DNA from: Phycisphaerae bacterium
Lineage (GTDB): Bacteria; Planctomycetota; Phycisphaerae; Sedimentisphaerales; Anaerobacaceae
Direction of reading: 5' to 3'
DNA length: 64,000 nt
NCBI GenBank assembly: GCA_012744475.1
Contig: JAAYBV010000039.1
Location: 1-64,000, forward strand
The notes beneath the pieces were generated by a model, which was given only the letters and a program-made list of their open reading frames with translations, ran no database searches and had not been told where the DNA came from. The position numbers were made by a program, and so were the translations under genes. Shown piece after piece: positions 1 through 10,140 of the stretch (position 1 is the first letter of the stretch; every line of letters begins with the position of its first letter).

Positions 1-1836
1 GCGATCTCTGCGTTCTGCCAGCGGGGCGGGGCCCGCGCGCTGGCCCTGGATCTGCTGTTCACCGAGTCCTCGGTCTACGGAGTTCCGGACGATGAGGCGA
101 TGGGACAGGCTCTGAAAGCCGGCACGCCGGCGGTCCTGGCCCTGATGCCCGGCGGAAGCGTGGAGGCCTGGCCGGATTACGTGCCGCGTCCGGATGCAGC
201 GACTCACACGGCGACGATGGCCGAGCCAGACCATCTACTGTTTCCGGTGCCGGAAGTGGCAGCAGGCGCTGTGGCTTTTGGACACGTTGCAGGCGTGCCG
301 GACGCTGATGGCGTGTTCCGGCGGGTTTCCCCATTCTGCCGCTTCGACAGGGTCGAGATCCCAGCGCTGGGGCTGGCAACGTACCTGGCCGCACAGCCAA
401 CGACGATCACCACCCACAACGGGCGGCTTCACGTCGGCGACAAGATCGTTCCTCTCGATACGCGGGGTGACGCCATCCTTAGGTTCCGAGGTCGCAACGG
501 CCTGCCGGAGGCGGTTTCCGCCGCCGCGGTCATCCAGTCGGAACTGCGCCTGCGCGACGGTGAGACGCCGGTGCTGTTACCCGAGACGTTGAAAGACTGC
601 TACGTCTTCGTAGGCTGTAGCGCGCCCGCCCTGCTGGATTTGCGGCCGACCCCGGTCAATCCCAAATGCCCTGGTGTCGTGCTGCACGGCGCATTCGTCG
701 ACAATCTCCTTACCGATTCCTTCATCGCCGAGGCCAACCTGCCGGTGGTCGCCCTGGTTGTGCTGGCCACCGCGGTCGGCGCGGCCCTGTCTCTGACCTA
801 CGGCGGTCGCTGGTGGCAGGCCGGGCCTCTGGCGGTCTTCTGGCTGGCGGTGCCGATTCTGGTCGGCTTCGCCGCATACGCCCGAGGATGGTGGTGGCCG
901 GTCGTCGCTCAAGGGAGCGCCTCGGCACTGGGCATGGTCGGCGCGCTGGTTGCGAATTACTGGATGGAGGGACGTCAGAAGGCGTTCATCAAGCAGGCAT
1001 TCCGTCACTACCTCAGCGGCGACGTGATCGAGAAGATCATCCGCGACCCCAAGCACCTCCAGCTCGGCGGCGAAAAACGCGAGCTGACGATCATGTTCAC
1101 CGATCTGGCCGGCTTCTCCAGCTTCTCCGAGAAATTGGGACCGGTTGAACTGACGACTCTTCTTAACGACTATCTCACCGAGATGACGGACATCATCATG
1201 GAAGAAGGCGGCACCCTCGACAAGTACGAGGGCGATGCGATCATCGCGTTCTGGAACGCGCCGCTGGGTCAGTCGGACCACGCGGTCCGGGCGTGCCGCG
1301 CGGCGATGCGCTGCCAGCGCCGCTTGGCCGAGCTTCGCGACGGTTTCCAGCAGCGGACCGGGGCCGTGCTGCGGATGAGGGTGGGACTGAACACCGGCGA
1401 CGTCGTCGTGGGCAACATGGGCTCGCGCAAGCGGTTCAACTACACAATCCTGGGTGACGCGGCGAATCTCGCCTCCCGCCTGGAGGGCGCCAACAAGGCC
1501 TTCGGCACCGAGACCATGGTTTCCGGCAGCACGTGGCGCCAGGCATCCTCCGAATTCCGGGGCCGCAAGCTGGCGGACCTGCGCGTGGTGGGACGCAAGA
1601 CCGCGGTGGAAGTATTCGAGCTGACGGGACTCGCAGCAGATCCCGCGCCGGCCGACTGGGAGACGTTCGCCGCCGGTCTGGCGCTCTTTGGCAAAGGCGA
1701 CTTCGCGGAGGCCAAGGCCGTCTTCGAGCAACTGCCCGACGACCCTGCCGCGAGGAACTACGCACAGCGATGTACGCACCTGGTCACCCATCCTCCGACC
1801 TCATGGGACGGGGTCTGGGGACTGACGGAGAAATGA
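1..1836 (+). CDS. CHASE2-domain adenylate/guanylate cyclase (5' end missing)
   Basis: The frame is open from base 1, so the N-terminus lies outside the window; 611 residues are visible. The visible start is a CHASE2-type extracytoplasmic sensor (GARALALDLLFTE), followed at residues ~245-320 by three hydrophobic segments and then a class III nucleotide cyclase domain. Metal-binding Asp is seen in FTDLAGFS (~368) and KYEGDA (~412), the base-selecting Lys at ~408, and YTILGDAANLASRLE carries the Asp and Asn/Arg typical of active cyclases (~481-495). A short TPR-like tail follows. It should make cAMP in the cytoplasm in response to an external signal. Its TGA overlaps the ATG of the next gene, so the two are probably translationally coupled. 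ATP rather than GTP as substrate is inferred from family residues. Confidence 0.9.
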   Translation, partial: AISAFCQRGGARALALDLLFTESSVYGVPDDEAMGQALKAGTPAVLALMPGGSVEAWPDYVPRPDAATHTATMAEPDHLLFPVPEVAAGAVAFGHVAGVPDADGVFRRVSPFCRFDRVEIPALGLATYLAAQPTTITTHNGRLHVGDKIVPLDTRGDAILRFRGRNGLPEAVSAAAVIQSELRLRDGETPVLLPETLKDCYVFVGCSAPALLDLRPTPVNPKCPGVVLHGAFVDNLLTDSFIAEANLPVVALVVLATAVGAALSLTYGGRWWQAGPLAVFWLAVPILVGFAAYARGWWWPVVAQGSASALGMVGALVANYWMEGRQKAFIKQAFRHYLSGDVIEKIIRDPKHLQLGGEKRELTIMFTDLAGFSSFSEKLGPVELTTLLNDYLTEMTDIIMEEGGTLDKYEGDAIIAFWNAPLGQSDHAVRACRAAMRCQRRLAELRDGFQQRTGAVLRMRVGLNTGDVVVGNMGSRKRFNYTILGDAANLASRLEGANKAFGTETMVSGSTWRQASSEFRGRKLADLRVVGRKTAVEVFELTGLAADPAPADWETFAAGLALFGKGDFAEAKAVFEQLPDDPAARNYAQRCTHLVTHPPTSWDGVWGLTEK

Positions 1837-2675
1837 GCATGCGGCTTTTCATCGGCGGAATGCGTGGCAGCCAGCCGGCAATCGGGAGCCGTTTCGACGA
1901 GTTCGGCGGTGACACGACCTCCCTGCTGGTGACAGGCTCGCATGGCGAACGGCTGGTGCTCGACGCCGGCACCGGGATGCGCGCCGTCGCGGGGCAACTG
2001 GCCCGGACAGAACCAGGCGAGGTGACGGTGCTGTTTTCGCATTATCATCTGGATCACCTGGCCGGACTGACGATGAACCCCCTGCTCTACAACAAGCAGT
2101 GGTCCTTCAAATTCGTCGGTCCCGCCTTCCCCGACGGCAACGTTTGCAGCGCCGTGACGGGTCTGTTGGCCCAGCCATACTGGCCCGTTTCCTGGAAGCA
2201 GATGAGTGCGCGGATCGAGTTCGCCGAATTTCCGGCCGAGGGAATCCGCGTCGGCAGCCTGCGCGTGCGGGGCTGTCGTGTGCCCCATCCCGGCGGCTGC
2301 GTCGCCTATCGCATCGAAGACGGCACGCGTGACGCCTCCGTGGTCTTCGCGACGGACATGGAATGGCGCCAGCGCACCGACGACGATGAGAAGTCGTTCA
2401 TGACAATGTGTTCCACTCCCCGACCGGCAGACCTGCTCATCATCGACGCCCACTTCGCCGAGGCGGAGAAGGACGCTTTCGCCGGATGGGGACACAGTTG
2501 CCGGGAGGACGACCTGGCGATGGCCCGCGCCGCGGGCATCCCGCGAGTGCTCCTCGGACACCACGCACCGAATGCCGACGACAGAACACTGCTGGCGGCG
2601 GAGGAGCAGGTGCGAAAGCTCTCGTCCGGCGCCCTGCTCGCACGGGCCGGACAATGGTTAACCATCTGTGGCTAA
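1833..2675 (+). CDS. metallo-beta-lactamase-fold hydrolase coupled to the cyclase
   Basis: A 280-residue MBL-fold protein. The zinc motif HYHLDH is at residues 70-75, an Asp lies in FATDME, and a C-terminal GHH (LLGHHAP) completes a two-metal site of the RNase Z/phosphodiesterase kind. The N-terminal GGDTTSLLV strand is also typical. The start ATG (1833) overlaps the upstream TGA as ATGA; a second ATG at 1839 is possible. Class II cyclic-nucleotide phosphodiesterases have this fold, and the position between a cyclase and a cNMP-binding channel makes cNMP hydrolysis an attractive inference. Sequence alone does not fix the substrate, and a nuclease or generic phosphodiesterase role is equally allowed. 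Confidence 0.85.
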   Translation: MSMRLFIGGMRGSQPAIGSRFDEFGGDTTSLLVTGSHGERLVLDAGTGMRAVAGQLARTEPGEVTVLFSHYHLDHLAGLTMNPLLYNKQWSFKFVGPAFPDGNVCSAVTGLLAQPYWPVSWKQMSARIEFAEFPAEGIRVGSLRVRGCRVPHPGGCVAYRIEDGTRDASVVFATDMEWRQRTDDDEKSFMTMCSTPRPADLLIIDAHFAEAEKDAFAGWGHSCREDDLAMARAAGIPRVLLGHHAPNADDRTLLAAEEQVRKLSSGALLARAGQWLTICG

Positions 2676-2684
2676 GGGGCAGTT

Positions 2685-4313
2685 ATGCTGAAGTGGCTCG
2701 AACCGATCTTGCCGTACATCCAGGTCATCGCCTTGGCGCTGGGAACGTTGTTCGGCGCCTACCTGCTGACGATTCCACTGCGCCGCCGCTACGCGCCTGC
2801 CGAGAGCATGGAACCGGCGCCTCGCTCCGGCCGCCAGTTTGCCGCGATCGTGCTGAACTACCTGGCGTTCGCACTGGTGGTGCTGGTCCTCTCCATCCCG
2901 GTGGTCCACTGGCTCAAACACAGCGAAACGCCGCTCCTGCTGAAATGGTCGCGCCACTATGAAGTCTGGCTGCTGTTCTGGGCCATGTACGCTGTCGTCC
3001 GGCTCGCGGAAGGGCTGCTGGTGGAGACCTTCGTGCAGATGCGAAGGCCCTGCCCGCTCAGCCGGCTGACTCGCGGCCTGCTGCGCCTGGCGATCATGCT
3101 GGGCATCACCTTCATGCTGATCCGGTTCTATCTGGGTCAGCCCATCGGCGTGCTGTTGACCTCGACCGCCATCGTCACCGGCGTCATCGGCTTCGCAATG
3201 CAGGGTGTCCTGGGCAACCTGCTGGCGGGCATATCCCTGCATGCCTGTCATTCCATGGCGGTGGGCGACTGGATTGAGGTCGACGGGACGATCGGGCAGG
3301 TGACCCTCGTGAGCTGGCGAGAGACACGTCTGCGCACCCGCAGCGGCCACATCGTGATTGTTCCCAACGGCAAACTCGCCGACGCGACCATTCGCAATTT
3401 CTCCTCCCCCACACCCCTGCGCCGACATCAAGTGATTGTGAGCGCCAGCTACAACGATCCGCCGGGCGACGTGATCGCCGCTCTGGAGGAGGCCGCGAAG
3501 GAAGCACCCCTGGTCGAGAAGGACCCGCCCCCGTCGGCACGCCTCGTCGCTTTCAAGGATTTCTGCATCGAGTACGTTCTTCGATTCTGGTCGACCCAGT
3601 ATCAGCGGCGCACGACGATCGAAGGCGGCGTGCAGCGGCTGATCTGGTACAAGTTCCAGCGCCGCGGGATCGAGATCCCGTTCCCGATGAGCGGCCGGCT
3701 GCTCGACAACTTCATGCAGGCGGTCCACGCCCAGCGGTTTGAGAAGCCGCTGGCCTCGGAGATCGAGCGCGCCGTCGACGACCTGGTCGGCAGCGATTTC
3801 GGGCGCAAGCTCATGGCCGATTCCGAGGGCGTTTGCCTGCTCAGCCGCGATGAACTCAGAAGCGTCGCCCGGGACGTGAAGCGCGTGCGTTTCACATACG
3901 GCGAGACCCTGATGCACCAGAACGACCAGGGAGAGTCGTTCTACGTCCTGGTTCAGGGGACCATCAAGGGCAGCATCGCGAACACCGACGCTGCCCGACC
4001 GATCGAGTTCGAATTGCGCCACGGGGCCCTGTTCGGCGAGATGAGCCTTCTGACCGGCCTGCCGCGAAGCGCGACCATGACCGCCGTGACGGACTGCGAA
4101 TTGCTCGAATTCGACCGGGCCGCCTTTGCCCACCTGCTCTCGCTGAGGGAGGAAATCCCCCACGTGCTCTCCGACCTGGCGGCCGCCCGCGCCGCGGAGA
4201 ACGCCCAGTCGCTGGAGAAGCTGCGGGCCTCGGCGGTGGTCCCGCCGGACCTGGCCAGGGACGGAATCCTGCACCGTCTCAAACGCATGTTGGGCGAATG
4301 GCGAGGCCGATGA
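2685..4313 (+). CDS. MscS-family channel with C-terminal cyclic-nucleotide-binding domain
   Basis: 542 residues. The N-terminal half has about five hydrophobic helices, followed by the MscS pore/beta domain (VIGFAMQGVLGNLLAG, then GDWIEVDGTIGQV and IVPNGKLADATIRNFS). From about residue 395 there is a CRP-like cNMP-binding domain; its phosphate-binding cassette FGEMSLLTGLPRSATM (~450) keeps the Gly-Glu and Arg that bind the cyclic phosphate. This architecture matches bacterial cyclic-nucleotide-gated (bCNG) MscS relatives in the inner membrane. It starts nine bases after the MBL gene and is surely in the same operon, so the local cyclase is the obvious ligand source. Gating by cAMP rather than by tension is inferred. 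Confidence 0.92.
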   Translation: MLKWLEPILPYIQVIALALGTLFGAYLLTIPLRRRYAPAESMEPAPRSGRQFAAIVLNYLAFALVVLVLSIPVVHWLKHSETPLLLKWSRHYEVWLLFWAMYAVVRLAEGLLVETFVQMRRPCPLSRLTRGLLRLAIMLGITFMLIRFYLGQPIGVLLTSTAIVTGVIGFAMQGVLGNLLAGISLHACHSMAVGDWIEVDGTIGQVTLVSWRETRLRTRSGHIVIVPNGKLADATIRNFSSPTPLRRHQVIVSASYNDPPGDVIAALEEAAKEAPLVEKDPPPSARLVAFKDFCIEYVLRFWSTQYQRRTTIEGGVQRLIWYKFQRRGIEIPFPMSGRLLDNFMQAVHAQRFEKPLASEIERAVDDLVGSDFGRKLMADSEGVCLLSRDELRSVARDVKRVRFTYGETLMHQNDQGESFYVLVQGTIKGSIANTDAARPIEFELRHGALFGEMSLLTGLPRSATMTAVTDCELLEFDRAAFAHLLSLREEIPHVLSDLAAARAAENAQSLEKLRASAVVPPDLARDGILHRLKRMLGEWRGR

Positions 4314-4354
4314 AAGCGACACGGAAGTCGCCGATTCCCATCCAAAACGGAATC

Positions 4355-4382
4355 CTTGCAATCGGGCGGCTTTGCCTATACT
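4355..4382 (+). promoter_or_regulatory. sigma-70 promoter of the TRAP operon
   Basis: A TATACT -10 hexamer at 4377-4382 is preceded by CTTGCA/TTGCAA around 4355-4361, giving a 15-16 base spacer. It lies after the end of the channel gene and about 130 bases before the dctP start. The -10 is strong and the -35 weak, so the call is moderate. Confidence 0.5.
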
Positions 4383-4410
4383 ATGGCAGGTGATTGGTGC
4401 GTGTGGATGC

Positions 4411-4475
4411 CGCTCGTTGTGATCCCGATGAATATCGGGATGAGGTGTCGTGCCCTCGCAGGCACGCGACGAGCG
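4411..4475 (+). promoter_or_regulatory. structured 5' leader (three-way junction) before dctP
   Basis: Three nested pairings are visible. The outer stem is CGCTCGT (4411-4417) with ACGAGCG (4469-4475). Inside it sit ATCCCGAT/ATCGGGAT around a GAAT loop (4422-4441) and CGTGCC/GGCACG around CTCGCA (4449-4466). The element lies between the promoter and the Shine-Dalgarno site GGGAGG (~4497-4502), so it would be in the mRNA leader. I do not recognise it as a named riboswitch. A related hairpin occurs at 49927-49942, so a dispersed repeat is an alternative. Confidence 0.5.
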
Positions 4476-4511
4476 CCGACTTACGGTGTGGGCTGCTGGG
4501 AGGTACCTTCA

Positions 4512-5552
4512 ATGAAATGGTGGAAAGTCGTCGTTTCGTTCGTGACCGTTGCGGTCGTGGCAACCGTCCTGTCGGGCTGCGGCAAATCGCGGGACCAGGA
4601 GAAGACCACGGAACTATCCTACAGCGTGTTCTTCCCGCCGACGCACATCCAGTGCCAGACCGCCGAGGCCTGGGCCCAGGAGATCGGCAAACGCACCAAC
4701 GGCAAGGTCAAGATCACCGTCTATCCCGGCGGCACGCTGACCAAGGCCGACCAGTGCTACGAAGGCGTCGTCAGCGGCGTCTCCGACATCGGCATGAGCT
4801 GCTTCGCCTACACGCGCGGACGCTTCCCCCTGCTCGAAGGGCTCGACCTGCCCCTTGGGTATCCTAACGGCCTGGTGGCCACACAGGTGGCGACGGAGAT
4901 GGTGCGCAAGTACCAACCGGCGGAAGTCGGCGACGTGCACGTGCTGTACGTTCACGCACACGGTCCGGGCATCCTGGCGACGCGGAAGCCGGTCCGCCGG
5001 CTGGAGGACCTGGCCGGCGTGAAGGTTCGCGCCACGGGCCTGTCCTCCAAGATCGTCCAGAGCCTGGGCGGCACGCCCCTGGCGATGAGCCAGGGCGAAA
5101 CCTACGAGAGCCTCCAGAAAGGCGTCGTCGAGGCCACGTTCTGTCCCATCGAGACGCTCAAGGGCTGGAAACAGGGCGAAGTCATCACCCACATCACGGA
5201 AACGTCGGCTATCGGTTACACGACCGCGATGTTCGTGGTGATCAACAAGAAAGCCTGGGAGGGCTTGAGCCCCGAGTTGCAGAAGGTGTTCACCGACGTG
5301 AGCAACGAGTTCGTCGCCAAACACGGCCAGGCGTGGGACCAGGCCGATCAGGAAGGCGCCGCCTTTGTCAAGGAGCTCCAGCGCGAGGTCATCACGTTGG
5401 ATGCTGCCGAGCAGCAGCGCTGGCAGTCAGCCGTCCAGCCGGTCCTCGATGAATACGTCAAGGCCGCGGCAGAAAAGAGCCTGCCCGGCCAGCAATTCCT
5501 CGACGACCTGCGAGCTTCCATTGCGAAACACTCTGAGGCCGCCGGCAGGTAA
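4512..5552 (+). CDS. dctP: TRAP transporter substrate-binding lipoprotein (DctP family)
   Basis: 346 residues, with a lipoprotein signal ending in the lipobox LSGC (Cys ~23), so it is probably tethered rather than free in the periplasm. The body is a DctP/TRAP solute receptor: [22 protein letters not shown], the [10 protein letters not shown] strand with the conserved ligand-carboxylate Arg, and the [21 protein letters not shown] hinge region. Start at 4512 was chosen because it gives the signal peptide and follows GGGAGG; in-frame codons further upstream give no signal. It feeds the DctQ/DctM permease immediately downstream. The ligand is probably an organic acid, but it cannot be named. Confidence 0.92.
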
Positions 5553-6086
5553 ATGGCTGAATCGACAGGGTTCATATCGCTCCTGAAGACCGGCTGGGCA
5601 GCCGGCGGTAAGGCGCTGCGTGCCTTGGTCTACGCGATGGCGATCGTCTCCGGGCTCAGCGTGCTGGCGATCATGCTGGTCACGTGCGCCGACGTGATTC
5701 TGCGCCTGCGGTGGGTCAACCACCCGTTCATAGGGGCCTACGACATCGTCAAGATCCTCGGGGCGCTGAGCCTGGCCACGGCGCTGCCCTACACCACGGC
5801 GGTCAAGGGCCACGTGGCAATCGAGTACTTCTTCCACAAGCTCAACCGTCGCGGCCGAATCATGGTTGACAGTGTGATGCGGCTGCTGACCATGGTCCTG
5901 TTCGCGTTCCTCACCTGGCGCAGCGTGCTCTACGGCCTCGATTTCTACCGCAACGGGCAGGTCAGCCAGACGCTCCAGTTGCCGGTCTTCTGGGTCCCGT
6001 ACGTCATCGGGTTCTGCTGTGCGGTTGTCGTACTGGTGGTCGGCCACAGCCTCATTCATCCGGACCGGGAGATGATCAAGCCATGA
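5553..6086 (+). CDS. dctQ: TRAP transporter small permease (DctQ family)
   Basis: 177 residues with four hydrophobic helices. It begins on the base after the dctP stop codon and ends in an ATGA overlap with dctM. The DctQ pattern is visible: a first helix near VLAIMLVTCADVILRL, then GAYDIVKILGALSLATALPYTTAVKGHVAIEYF, which matches the family's small-subunit signature. It is the membrane subunit that docks with DctM and the substrate-loaded receptor; transport is driven by an ion gradient. Confidence 0.9.
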   Translation: MAESTGFISLLKTGWAAGGKALRALVYAMAIVSGLSVLAIMLVTCADVILRLRWVNHPFIGAYDIVKILGALSLATALPYTTAVKGHVAIEYFFHKLNRRGRIMVDSVMRLLTMVLFAFLTWRSVLYGLDFYRNGQVSQTLQLPVFWVPYVIGFCCAVVVLVVGHSLIHPDREMIKP

Positions 6087-7384
6087 CGCCGATCCAGATT
6101 GGCATTGTCGGTTGCCTGTGCCTGCTGCTTCTGTTGACGGCCAGCCTGCCGGTGGCGTTCGCCATGGCCGTCGTCGGCTTCGTCGGGTTCGCGGTGGTGG
6201 TCTCGCCCGAGGCGGCCATGAGCATGATCACGATGGACCTGTACGACACGTTCAGCTCGTACGGCCTGACGGTGATCCCGCTGTTCGTGCTCATGGGGCA
6301 GGTGGCCTTTCACGCGGGAATCAGCCGGGGCTTGTTCAACGCCGCCTATCACTGGCTCGGCGCCCTGCCGGGCGGTCTGGCCATGGCCACGGTGGGCGCC
6401 TGCACCGCTTTCGGCGCCATTTGCGGGTCGGGACCGGCCACCTCGGCGACGATGGCCTCGGTCGCTTTGCCCGAGATGAAGCGATTCAAGTACAGCATGG
6501 AACTCGGCTGCGGGGCCGTCGCCGCCGGCGGCGGCATCGGCATGCTCATCCCGCCGAGTGTAGTCTTCATCGTCTACGGGATCATGACCGAACAGTCAGT
6601 GGGCAAGCTCTTCATCGCGGGGATCGTGCCGGGTTTGCTGATCGCGCTGCTGTTCTGCCTGACGATCTACGTCATTTGCAGGCGTCGACCCCAGCTCGGG
6701 CCGCCCGCCCCGCGCACGAGCTGGCCGGCCAAGTTCGCGTCGCTGACCGGGGTCCTTGAGACGCTGGTGCTGTTCGTTGCGGTCATGGGCGGCATGTTCG
6801 CCGGGTTCTTCACCCCCACCGAAGCGGCCGCCATCGGCGCCGCCGGCACGTTGGTCATCGGTCTGGTCAAGAGGCAGTTGACGATTCGCAAAGTGATCCG
6901 CTCTCTCCAGGAGACGGTTCGCACCTCGTGCATGGTCATGTTCATCGTCACCGGGGCGGTCATCTTCGGCCACTTCCTGGCGGTGACCCGCATCCCCGAT
7001 GAGCTGGCCAGGTGGCTGGCAAACCTCCCGCTGCCCGGCTGGAGCATCATGGCCCTGATCATCCTGTTCTATCTGCTGGCCGGCTGTTTCGTCGACGCCC
7101 TGGGCCTGATCATGCTGACGATCCCGATCTTCTACCCGGTCGTCATGGGATTGGGGTACGACCCGATCTGGTTCGGCGTGATCATCGTAGTGGTCACCAT
7201 GATGGGCGTAATCAGCCCGCCGGTGGGTGTGTGCGTGTACGTGGTCAGCGGGATCGAGCGCGATGTGCCGCTGCAAACCGTCTTTCGAGGGGCCCTGCCG
7301 TTCCTGGGGGCCCTGATCGTCGCCGCGATCCTCCTGATCCTGTTCCCGCAACTTTGCCTGTTCCTGCCGGAGGCGATGAGATAG
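6083..7384 (+). CDS. dctM: TRAP transporter large permease (DctM family)
   Basis: 433 residues and about 12 hydrophobic helices, the expected DctM length. Family features include the start PIQIGIVGCLCLLLLLTASLPVAFAM, the GSGPATSATMASVALPEMKRFKY helix-loop, GGGIGMLIPPSVVFIVYG, and FFTPTEAAAIGAAG. Start ATG overlaps the dctQ stop (ATGA). This subunit carries the substrate and the co-transported ion (usually Na+) across the inner membrane. Confidence 0.95.
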   Translation: MTPIQIGIVGCLCLLLLLTASLPVAFAMAVVGFVGFAVVVSPEAAMSMITMDLYDTFSSYGLTVIPLFVLMGQVAFHAGISRGLFNAAYHWLGALPGGLAMATVGACTAFGAICGSGPATSATMASVALPEMKRFKYSMELGCGAVAAGGGIGMLIPPSVVFIVYGIMTEQSVGKLFIAGIVPGLLIALLFCLTIYVICRRRPQLGPPAPRTSWPAKFASLTGVLETLVLFVAVMGGMFAGFFTPTEAAAIGAAGTLVIGLVKRQLTIRKVIRSLQETVRTSCMVMFIVTGAVIFGHFLAVTRIPDELARWLANLPLPGWSIMALIILFYLLAGCFVDALGLIMLTIPIFYPVVMGLGYDPIWFGVIIVVVTMMGVISPPVGVCVYVVSGIERDVPLQTVFRGALPFLGALIVAAILLILFPQLCLFLPEAMR

Positions 7385-7424: not shown

Positions 7425-7919
7425 ATGGACCCTCTCAAGCCAGACGAAACGACGTTTTCCCAGATCCTCTTCTGCACCGATTTTTCAGAGAACGCCGATT
7501 TTGCGTTTTCCTTTGCGGTCGACGCCGCCGGCCGGCGTCCGGGATGCCGGCTCCATCTGCTCCACGTGATCCCGGAAACCGAGGCCCAGTTCTGGAAGAC
7601 CTACATCTACGAGGTGGACGACGTTGACGCCAAGGCCAAGCGCGACGTCGACGAGCGCATCGAGACGTACCGCGCCAGAGTGCCCGAACAAGTCGAGTTC
7701 CACGTCGAGATTCGCATCGGCAAAGACGAACAGGAAATCCTCGCCTTTGCGCGTGAGCGGCAGGTCGATCTGATCGTCATGGGCCGCCAGGGCCGTGGCG
7801 CCCTCCAGAAGGTCCTGTTCGGCAAAGTCACGGAGAAGGTCGTCCGCAAGGCCGACTGCGCCGTCCTCGTCGTCCCGCTGAGCTACCGCCGCAGACGCGT
7901 GCATTCCTCCGACAAATGA
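7425..7919 (+). CDS. universal stress protein UspA family
   Basis: 164 residues, a single Usp domain. It opens with QILFCTDFSENADFAFSFAVDAA and contains LHLLHVIPE and VDLIVMGRQGRG. The ATP-binding signature G-2x-G-9x-G(S/T) appears as GRQG...FGK, with Lys where Ser/Thr usually stands, so ATP binding may be weakened. It lies 40 bases after dctM in the same direction. Known precedent: TeaD, a Usp encoded beside the TeaABC TRAP transporter, tunes that transporter; a similar role here is inferred. Confidence 0.9.
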   Translation: MDPLKPDETTFSQILFCTDFSENADFAFSFAVDAAGRRPGCRLHLLHVIPETEAQFWKTYIYEVDDVDAKAKRDVDERIETYRARVPEQVEFHVEIRIGKDEQEILAFARERQVDLIVMGRQGRGALQKVLFGKVTEKVVRKADCAVLVVPLSYRRRRVHSSDK

Positions 7920-8040: not shown

Positions 8041-8874
8041 TTAGTATCCCAGACGGCCCCAGGTGGCCACCTGCAATCGGTGGAGATCTTCGAAGTCGGC
8101 CTCCGACTCCGGCGCCCGGCTGTTGCTCGCGTGCGCCTTCTGCTGAAGCTTGCCGTACTTGATCGTGCCGGTGCCCCTCCACTTCCAGTATTCGACGTGA
8201 CCATCGGCGAAGGAGCCATTCATACCATCACCGTGCCGGACGGGAGCATCGTCCCACCAGGTCTCCTGCTGGTAGTACACGGCGTAGCTGTCGGGCGTCA
8301 CCCACCCCTCATCGATGAAGACCATGCGATAAGCCGGACCCGGGCTGACGATCTCGTCGAGCCGACGGAGCCACACCACCGTCTTGCCCACGCGCGTCCC
8401 CACCATCTTGCCGCCAATCGTCGTGGTGGTACCCGTGCGGTACAGCCCGTTGACCGAGTCCATCGCGGCATAGGTCAGAAGCTCGCCCTTCGTGCCGGTC
8501 GGACAACGATAGGGCCCCGTGTCCCTGACGTAGGTGTACAGAGCGCCCGCCCTGATGCCTTCCCTCTGCAAATCCTCGTCCAGGCTGACGCCTGTCTGGT
8601 AGCTGTCATGCCAGCACTTGCCGACCCAATACGGCCCCTGAGCCGCCTGAGAGCTATCGATGCCGCCGGTGCCGTTGACGATCTTGCCGTTGCTCTCGTC
8701 GGCGTACATCAACCAGGCCAGCGTCAACTGCTTGAGGTTGGCCAGACACGCGGCGCGGCGGCCCTGCTCGCGGGCGCGACCCAACGTCGGCATTAAGATG
8801 GCCATCAAGACCGCGATAATGGCAATGACCACCAGAAGTTCGATCAACGTGAAACCCTTTGTTCTTTTATCCAT
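8041..8874 (-). CDS. prepilin-like secreted protein with H-X9-DG tail (copy 1)
   Basis: 277 residues. The type IV pilin/type II pseudopilin leader [24 protein letters not shown] follows a short basic N-terminus, so PilD-type cleavage before Phe is expected. The C-terminal part carries the planctomycete H-X9-DG motif (RHGDG...FADGHVEYW). Start at 8874 was chosen because it sits right before the leader with AGGAG eight bases upstream. It lies about 100 bases downstream of a second prepilin gene and is likely co-transcribed with it. Its role in pili, secretion or surface assembly is not known. Confidence 0.88.
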
Positions 8875-8972
8875 AGTTGCGCTCCTACTTGTATCGCTGA
8901 TCTTCGTACGACCCGACAATCACAGCCACGTTACCGCGGCCGTCACCCGCCACACGCCACATGCTGCTCGGC

Positions 8973-9800
8973 TCAGTAGTCCTTGTACTTGCGCATCCAC
9001 TGAGGCCACTGTGTCGGATCGACTCCGCCGGCCTTCGTCCAGTAGTTGTTGACGTTGTACGTCTTGTGCCACTTCAGCGTCCACAGCTCTTTGAGACCGA
9101 CGGGCCGGGCCGTCCAGTCGGCAAAGAGCGAATTGACGAAGCCGTCGTGCCGATCGACACAGACACGGTTCATCTCGTTGGTTCCCGGCGTGTCGCCAGG
9201 CCCCGCATCCGTCTCCGGGGGCTGATCGGTCTCGAGCGGCCATGAATCAACCCACCAGCTTCCGGTGAATACAGGCACCTCATTGGAGTGCTGGCCCGGC
9301 GGCCGGCCCCAGTGCCGCGACCTTCCCTGCGCATCGAGATCGTTGCGTCCCCAGGCGGATGTCTTGGAGCCCCTGGCGTCACGAATGTTCAGGATCCAGC
9401 CGTTCAGACCGTAGCTGCCCACATCGCTGGCAACCTCCCAAGCCGTGTACGACCAGCCGCCGGAAGGGATGCCACCGGTCGGACGCGGTTTCATCGCCTG
9501 CGGGCACAGCCACATCTTGACGTCTTTCGAGTAAGGTCGCATCGTTATGCGCCAGAACGCGCCGGACCCCACGTCGGAGGTGCTGCCGCTGACCTCTCCG
9601 GTGAAGAACTTGCCGTCGTTGTCCTCGCAATAGAGGGCGAACGCCAAGCCCCACTGTTTCAGGTTGGCCAGGCAGGTGACCTTCCTGGCCTGCTTCCTCA
9701 CGCGGCTCAGAGCGGGCATCAGGATGCCCATCAGGATGGCGATGATGGCGATGACCACCAGAAGCTCGATCAGTGTGAAACCCTTGCGTCTACTACCCAT
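8973..9800 (-). CDS. prepilin-like secreted protein, degenerate H-X9-DG (copy 2)
   Basis: 275 residues, with leader [20 protein letters not shown] and the body plan of the neighbouring copy ([16 protein letters not shown]). The C-terminal motif is [13 protein letters not shown]: His and Asp are in register, but Trp replaces Gly. The tail [11 protein letters not shown] is shared with the distant copy at 40008-40847. The in-frame extension upstream is not coding-like and would bury the pilin leader, so 9800 is the start. Transcription probably comes from the promoter at 10112-10140 through a ~300-base leader. Confidence 0.87.
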
Positions 9801-10111
9801 GATCTCTTCTTTCTTCTCCTCTTGCCTCTCCAGACGCTCCAGAAATCGCGTACCACCCGCCTCTGCAACGGGAAAGGGCATCTGCGACTGCCGACAATCG
9901 CAGGCTCCGCGAGAGACGACCCGCCGCCGCAGAGCGCAGGCATCTGCGCAAACCACACCCGAATGGATGCGCACGCACCCTTGCCTGTTCCGTTCCCTCC
10001 GCCTCAAGAGCCATGGATTCTTCGCGCAAAACGCCAAGAGACCCGCACATGCGCCCAGCAGACCCTTCTGACCGCGCGGTACGGAGAGGGCAATATCACC
10101 AGAACACGTCA
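9801..10111 (-). promoter_or_regulatory. long 5' leader of the prepilin operon
   Basis: About 305 bases separate the predicted transcription start (near 10105 on the minus strand) from the prepilin start codon. I see GC-rich local inverted repeats but no recognisable riboswitch core; I looked for a c-di-GMP-I motif and did not find one. Just before the start codon the leader is purine-rich (GAGGAGAAG and AAGAAGAGA), which may provide the ribosome site. Confidence 0.4.
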
Positions 10112-10140
10112 ATTGTACCGCCAGATTGCGATCATGTCAA
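10112..10140 (-). promoter_or_regulatory. consensus sigma-70 promoter for the two prepilin genes
   Basis: Read on the minus strand: TTGACA (10140-10135), a 17-base spacer, TACAAT (10117-10112). This is a perfect -35, a good -10 and ideal spacing. It drives leftward transcription toward the prepilin at 9800. On the other side it abuts the 3' region of fucU. Confidence 0.75.

Follow-up and report, generated by a model that had tools for sequence, protein, structure and literature searches.

The beginning of a 64,000-nucleotide stretch of Phycisphaerae bacterium DNA (contig JAAYBV010000039.1 of assembly GCA_012744475.1, positions 1 to 64,000; hereafter the window) carries the larger part of a conserved operon in which a gene for a CHASE2-linked class III adenylyl cyclase is followed by genes for a metallo-beta-lactamase (MBL)-fold hydrolase, probably a phosphodiesterase, and for an MscS-type channel with a cyclic-nucleotide-binding (CNB) domain. 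By analogy with characterized relatives of these proteins, we consider it fairly probable that the operon specifies a self-contained cyclic AMP (cAMP) circuit with an ion channel as its output. Since the block recurs in distantly related bacteria, it has the look of a bacterial circuit that leads privately and completely from cAMP to an ion channel. Whether it is also the bacterial counterpart of the vertebrate cascade of cyclase, phosphodiesterase and cyclic-nucleotide-gated (CNG) channel, and in some genomes the entire CNB-based system with no CRP, is a proposal for which we judge the chances to be even. Bacterial cAMP is usually viewed as a route to CRP and transcription; if the proposed circuit is real, an envelope cue would lead directly to ion flux and not to transcription.

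In the proposed circuit, an envelope or external cue would be sensed by periplasmic SH3 and M48 proteins and by the extracytoplasmic CHASE2 domain of the cyclase, and would act via CHASE2 on the cytoplasmic class III domain to make cAMP. Binding of cAMP to the CNB domain of the MscS-type channel would change its gating. The MBL enzyme, presumably translated together with its two neighbours, cyclase and channel, would hydrolyse cAMP and reset the system. An earlier note on this DNA, made from its letters alone, had proposed that adjacent genes here make, break and sense a cyclic nucleotide. That interpretation is supported by the analyses below, the biochemical activity of every part being one that we infer.

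Gene content and arrangement

The cyclase, MBL and channel genes named in the earlier note are all present, and the five Pfam matches in their products exceed the curated cut-offs (CHASE2, E-value 8.7e-30, and Guanylate_cyc, 6.8e-21, in the cyclase; Lactamase_B_2, 4.5e-12, in the MBL protein; MS_channel_2nd, 1.7e-17, and cNMP_binding, 1.7e-19, in the channel). Its finer readings also proved accurate: the cyclase and MBL genes share an ATGA overlap, nine bases separate the MBL stop codon from the channel ATG, the cyclase has its metal residues (both Asp; the Lys that reads the base and the Asn and Arg of the transition state are present as well), the hydrolase has an HxHxDH motif and the phosphate-binding cassette of the channel, FGEMSLLTGLPRSAT, is intact. 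The cyclase gene is interrupted by the end of its contig (C11), and its first 85 codons lie on a second contig (C27). Window positions 1-127 are identical to the end of C27 (G000:C27:1-127), and the operon is split in two at this 127-base overlap; a shared contig end of this kind fits typical behaviour of a k-mer assembler. Joining C11 and C27 gave a cyclase of 696 amino acids with its start at window position -254. Genes for an SH3 protein and an M48 metallopeptidase, which share an ATGA overlap of their own, lie upstream on the same strand, and the unit is therefore SH3-M48-cyclase-MBL-channel. Its features are listed here in window coordinates, negative where they lie upstream of the window.

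-1738..-1250 (on C27), same strand as the cyclase: SH3 protein with signal peptide, periplasmic; upstream, off the window
-1253..-327 (on C27), same strand as the cyclase: M48 metallopeptidase with lipoprotein-like N-terminus; upstream, off the window
1..1836, + strand: CHASE2 class III adenylyl cyclase gene, 3' part; frame open at base 1, stop at 1836
16..750, + strand: extracytoplasmic CHASE2 sensor domain (in-window part), then transmembrane helices; PF05226, 104.6 bits, residues 6-250 of P0001
1078..1605, + strand: cyclase catalytic domain; PF00211, 75.1 bits
1833..2675, + strand: MBL-fold hydrolase, probable atypical class II cyclic-nucleotide phosphodiesterase; ATG at 1833, in the ATGA overlap with the cyclase
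2040..2057, + strand: metal-binding motif HxHxDH (HYHLDH) of the MBL protein; same motif in 56 of 56 sequences
2685..4313, + strand: MscS-type channel with C-terminal CNB domain (bCNG architecture); ATG at 2685, stop ends at 4313
3207..3404, + strand: MscS beta domain of the channel; PF00924
3885..4139, + strand: CNB domain of the channel; PF00027
4032..4076, + strand: phosphate-binding cassette of the CNB domain, read in the channel sequence

Conservation and distribution

We examined 67 loci, one per genome and excluding the window. The cyclase and/or the channel gene stands beside the MBL gene in 55 of them, SH3-M48-cyclase-MBL is present in 41, cyclase-MBL-MscS/CNB is consecutive in 30, and all five genes occur in the order SH3-M48-cyclase-MBL-channel in 26. 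Co-occurrence in a fixed order, which the earlier note had offered as a check, was thus found; of its self-contained three-part module, the conservation of the three genes stands, but the unit consists of five genes and the channel is facultative. Operon junctions are mostly overlapping or within tens of bases, with a cyclase-MBL distance of 10 bases or less in most operons and an MBL-channel junction that overlaps or spans fewer than 61 bases in all 28 measured. The operon occurs in Verrucomicrobiota, Krumholzibacteriota and Planctomycetota, and a genome-contig scan combined with two phylum searches showed that 47 of 388 genomes in the first phylum and 18 of 80 in the second have an MBL orthologue. 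An identical five-gene order is found in Phycisphaerales UBA2218 (L100; 74-82% identity) and in a different family within the phylum of the window (L040). In Krumholzibacteriia CSMAG_177 the channel gene comes next in order, on a contig that overlaps.

A tree of 202 MBL proteins placed all 55 operon MBLs (that of the window and 54 others, the Ensifer protein being set apart) in one clade together with four non-operon rows; according to the labels used, 137 rows lacked a neighbouring cyclase or CNB gene. The association with cyclases therefore belongs to one clade and has suffered few losses. A general linkage of this MBL superfamily to cyclases was rejected, as most of the Planctomycetota paralogues (24-38% identity) have no cyclase within 6 kb and one clade only is linked. 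Other members of the superfamily stand beside cyclase or CNB genes independently, in Ensifer, Fusibacter, Desulfovibrio and seven Gemmatimonadota. The Gemmatimonadota loci (L126, L135, L139, L141, L158, L159 and L162) have a separate CNB gene directly upstream of the MBL homologue and form one tree clade; no cyclase homologue was detected in the stretch fetched. On Rhizobium plasmids, where about 4 kb separate a cyclase from an MBL homologue located next to pca genes, the arrangement was rejected as an operon. Viral contigs yielded five weak MBL relatives only.

A sole cyclase beside a sole receptor

The window genome (5.75 Mb, 99.6% complete) contains a single match to PF00211 (class III cyclase, Guanylate_cyc), which is the operon cyclase, and a single match to PF00027 (cNMP_binding), which is the operon channel; of 14 control genomes searched in the same way, 10 have CNB proteins. 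No CRP-type protein was found in the window genome, and two of its three MscS-type genes lie outside the operon. Among 55 genomes, 48 have no class III cyclase (PF00211) other than that of the operon. The window genome and at least six others (G466, G549, G654, G763, G787 and G998) contain no CNB protein apart from the channel. To our knowledge, it is unsettled what bCNG (MscS-CNB) channels do physiologically and where their natural signal comes from. Having the only class III cyclase and the only CNB receptor in one operon makes both the purpose of such a channel and a CRP-free role of cAMP directly testable.

The channel: ligand or membrane tension

The channel has the bCNG architecture, in which an MscS pore and cage are fused to a C-terminal CNB domain. 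Its structure model (predicted local distance difference test, pLDDT, 87.6; predicted template modelling score, pTM, 0.45) matches MscS, and the CNB part matches CRP. The Gly, Glu, Arg and Ala of the CNB cassette are invariant in all 31 ungapped sequences, and comparison with characterized channels suggests that cAMP would control conductance. An alternative is that the channel is mainly a tension-gated osmotic valve which cAMP only tunes, for example by closing or sensitizing it, such that the operon would act as an envelope-stress rheostat. This would suit an alignment to MscS that covers about 200 residues of pore and cage, the match of the model to both open and closed MscS, and the SH3 and M48 neighbours, which suggest the cell envelope; tension gating is also stated for one bCNG channel in the title of Malcolm 2012, as cited in PMC4560390. 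Yet the CNB cassette is conserved as strictly as the pore, so the ligand matters either way, even if the direction of gating is not readable from sequence. We view a primarily osmotic role as a tentative possibility, on balance unlikely.

The MBL enzyme: phosphodiesterase or another hydrolase

The MBL protein carries SHYHLDH, which matches the [T/S]HxHxDH signature of the atypical class II phosphodiesterases Rv1339, YhfI and CpdA (PMC9293780). HxHxDH, H152, D175 and H221 are invariant in 56 of 56 MBL sequences, and H243 is kept in all 54 that are ungapped there. The best Foldseek matches of the structure model (pLDDT 95.8) are BA1088 and YhfI, and in VIA-align the model ties RNase Z (Z 28.8) with YhfI (27.9). 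A profile alignment showed that about 45 residues between motifs III and IV of Bacillus subtilis RNase Z, which we take to be the exosite arm, are absent from the MBL protein; the motif III His and the motif IV Asp lie 21-23 residues apart in every one of the 56 sequences. The protein also scores 42 bits against a cut-off of 293 for the curated RNase Z NCBIfam model. The missing arm (reference structure 1y44) and this shortfall led us to reject RNase Z identity, although RNase Z and YhfI are not distinguished by overall fold scores. Against NF041851 (cyc_nuc_deg_phdiest) the score is again 42 bits, below the cut-off of 400, so the protein is not filed as that equivalog. Since curated models fall far short of their cut-offs, the family assignment rests on motif, fold, the missing arm and gene context, which together point to a probable atypical class II cyclic-nucleotide phosphodiesterase. 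YhfI prefers cAMP/cGMP (PMC9117128), and hydrolysis of cAMP by the operon enzyme would follow this precedent. The earlier note had staked its proposal in part on the nearest characterized homologues not being nucleases. This holds for the armless relatives, which are YhfI-type cAMP/cGMP phosphodiesterases; by fold, RNase Z is equally close.

The MBL enzyme might not be an off-switch at all: it could act on another substrate, such as RNA ends, linear dinucleotides or other phosphodiesters, and serve as an effector or in processing, under regulation shared with the cyclase and channel. Promiscuous phosphodiesterase activity is a trait of MBL-fold proteins, RNase Z scores as well as YhfI in both profile and fold comparisons, and the Gemmatimonadota CNB-MBL pairs, with a cyclase undetected in the stretch fetched, would also fit an MBL enzyme that is controlled by cAMP and does not hydrolyse it. 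We nevertheless find such a role decidedly unlikely: the exosite arm is missing in all 56 sequences, the nearest armless relatives to have been tested (YhfI and others) cleave cAMP/cGMP (PMC9117128), and a cyclase gene accompanies the clade in almost all genomes.

The cyclase and its product

The operon cyclase is assigned to the CHASE2-linked class III adenylyl cyclases, with PF05226 and PF00211 above cut-off and all catalytic residues present. All 55 operon cyclases share both metal Asp residues, the Lys that reads the base, and the Asn and Arg of the transition state. The base position is thus Lys (K493) and not Glu throughout, and the second base residue of these 55 sequences is Thr or Ser (Thr in the window cyclase). 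In the Synechocystis CHASE2 cyclase Cya2, Glu at the Lys position makes a guanylyl cyclase and the E488K substitution an adenylyl cyclase (PMC5995499). Because the invariant Lys matches this precedent, cAMP is the likely product. A WDGVW-LTEK-like tail closes many of the operon cyclases (21 of 54 have the strict motif; window 1798-1833 is an example); the native C-terminus of Cya2 is required for activity (PMC5995499).

An anti-phage role resembling Pycsar, in which the cyclase signal would open a CNB effector that disrupts membranes and the MBL enzyme would act as the brake, is very improbable. Pycsar does combine a cyclase and a membrane effector (PMC11224242), and Apyc1 belongs to the MBL enzymes (PMC9117128). 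PADLOC models also match, PycC on the cyclase domain (112 bits) and a TIR effector of Pycsar on the CNB domain, but these matches extend over nothing more than the catalytic and CNB domains that the systems have in common. The external CHASE2 sensor, the adenylyl-cyclase-like base site (Lys/Thr or Lys/Ser) in all operons, the status of the cyclase as usually the genome's only class III cyclase, and inheritance along one clade with two envelope genes recurring in most operons also argue against it. Chance adjacency of three unrelated genes, for which the rarity of the operon in the window's own class might be cited, was rejected as next to impossible, because the order is conserved in dozens of genomes from several phyla and a sole cyclase stands beside a sole CNB protein.

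Observations that weigh against the circuit

Several findings count against a self-contained cAMP circuit. Only one of 198 genomes of the window's class, the window genome itself, has the operon, so its distribution is patchy. The MBL protein scores equally with the RNase Z and mycobacterial phosphodiesterase models, far under the cut-off of both. About 18 operons have a cyclase-MBL pair without an adjacent channel, indicating that the channel is the usual and not the only output; no recurrent replacement effector was evident by eye among the forward open reading frames listed downstream of such operons, opposite strands not being fully surveyed. Finally, SH3-M48-cyclase-MBL is present and no CNB protein was detected in G621, G779 and G892 (L258, L263 and L282). 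These assemblies are of the size of metagenome-assembled genomes (2.1-3.0 Mb), and there may be another cAMP receptor in these bacteria or the assemblies may be incomplete.

Relation to known systems

The closest described arrangement is that of Campylobacterota, where CHASE2 cyclases cluster with cAMP phosphodiesterase, FecR and TPR genes (PMC9239204). The two share a CHASE2 cyclase, which is usually the only kind of cyclase in Campylobacterota, a cAMP phosphodiesterase (predicted here) and extracytoplasmic partners. They differ in that the FecR and TPR partners are replaced here by SH3 and M48, an MscS-CNB channel is usually added and other phyla are involved; an MBL fold of the Campylobacterota phosphodiesterase is not stated in the main text of that paper. 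An Ensifer locus (L035) looks like a bridge between the two: on a plasmid, at 3424-6819, TPR and FecR genes face away from a CHASE2 cyclase-MBL pair, and genes for NHLP bacteriocin export adjoin. Pairing of cyclase and phosphodiesterase is thus known in kind, and the new part is the SH3-M48 partners, the channel and the distribution. The earlier note knew of no description of its operon as a unit; this holds for the five-gene operon, of which, as of the combination of CHASE2, adenylate cyclase and metallo-beta-lactamase, we found no description in a search with most subscription journals outside its scope, and not for the cyclase-phosphodiesterase cluster.

The proposed action with envelope partners has a parallel in the Sinorhizobium meliloti CHASE2 cyclases CyaD1, CyaD2 and CyaK, which work with NsrA (PMC13001267). 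In that system a CHASE2 cyclase raises cAMP in response to an external cue, as is proposed here; the output there is a CRP-family regulator (Clr), whereas the window genome has no CRP-type protein that we could find. Described bCNG channels (Caldwell 2010 and Malcolm 2012, as cited in PMC4560390) have the same MscS pore and cage with a C-terminal CNB domain, but here the channel shares an operon with its own cyclase and a probable phosphodiesterase; a bCNG-like channel of Azospirillum (L290) has neither as a neighbour. Like Rv1339, B. subtilis YhfI and Corynebacterium glutamicum CpdA (PMC9293780, PMC9117128), the operon MBL has the MBL fold, [T/S]HxHxDH, a Lactamase_B_2 match and no RNase Z arm, but it is about 21% identical to YhfI and belongs to a separate clade linked to CHASE2 cyclases. 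Pycsar (PMC11224242) likewise pairs a cyclase with a CNB effector, and differs in its lack of a CHASE2 sensor, its pyrimidine signal, its TIR or transmembrane killer effector and its anti-phage role. The operon supplies a concrete hypothesis for a large MBL clade and for the widespread SH3-M48 envelope pair.

Neighbouring genes and other observations

Directly 3' of the channel, window positions 4356-7384 hold an operon for a tripartite ATP-independent periplasmic (TRAP) transporter (solute-binding protein, small and large membrane subunits), after which comes a UspA-like gene at 7425-7919. In a Krumholzibacteriia locus (L181, 2303-3268, minus strand), the MBL frame runs about 160 residues past its usual end as a C-terminal extension. 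Two prepilin-type pseudopilin-like proteins, of a family common in Planctomycetes-Verrucomicrobia-Chlamydiae (PVC) bacteria, are encoded on the minus strand of the window at 8041-8919 and 8973-10112.

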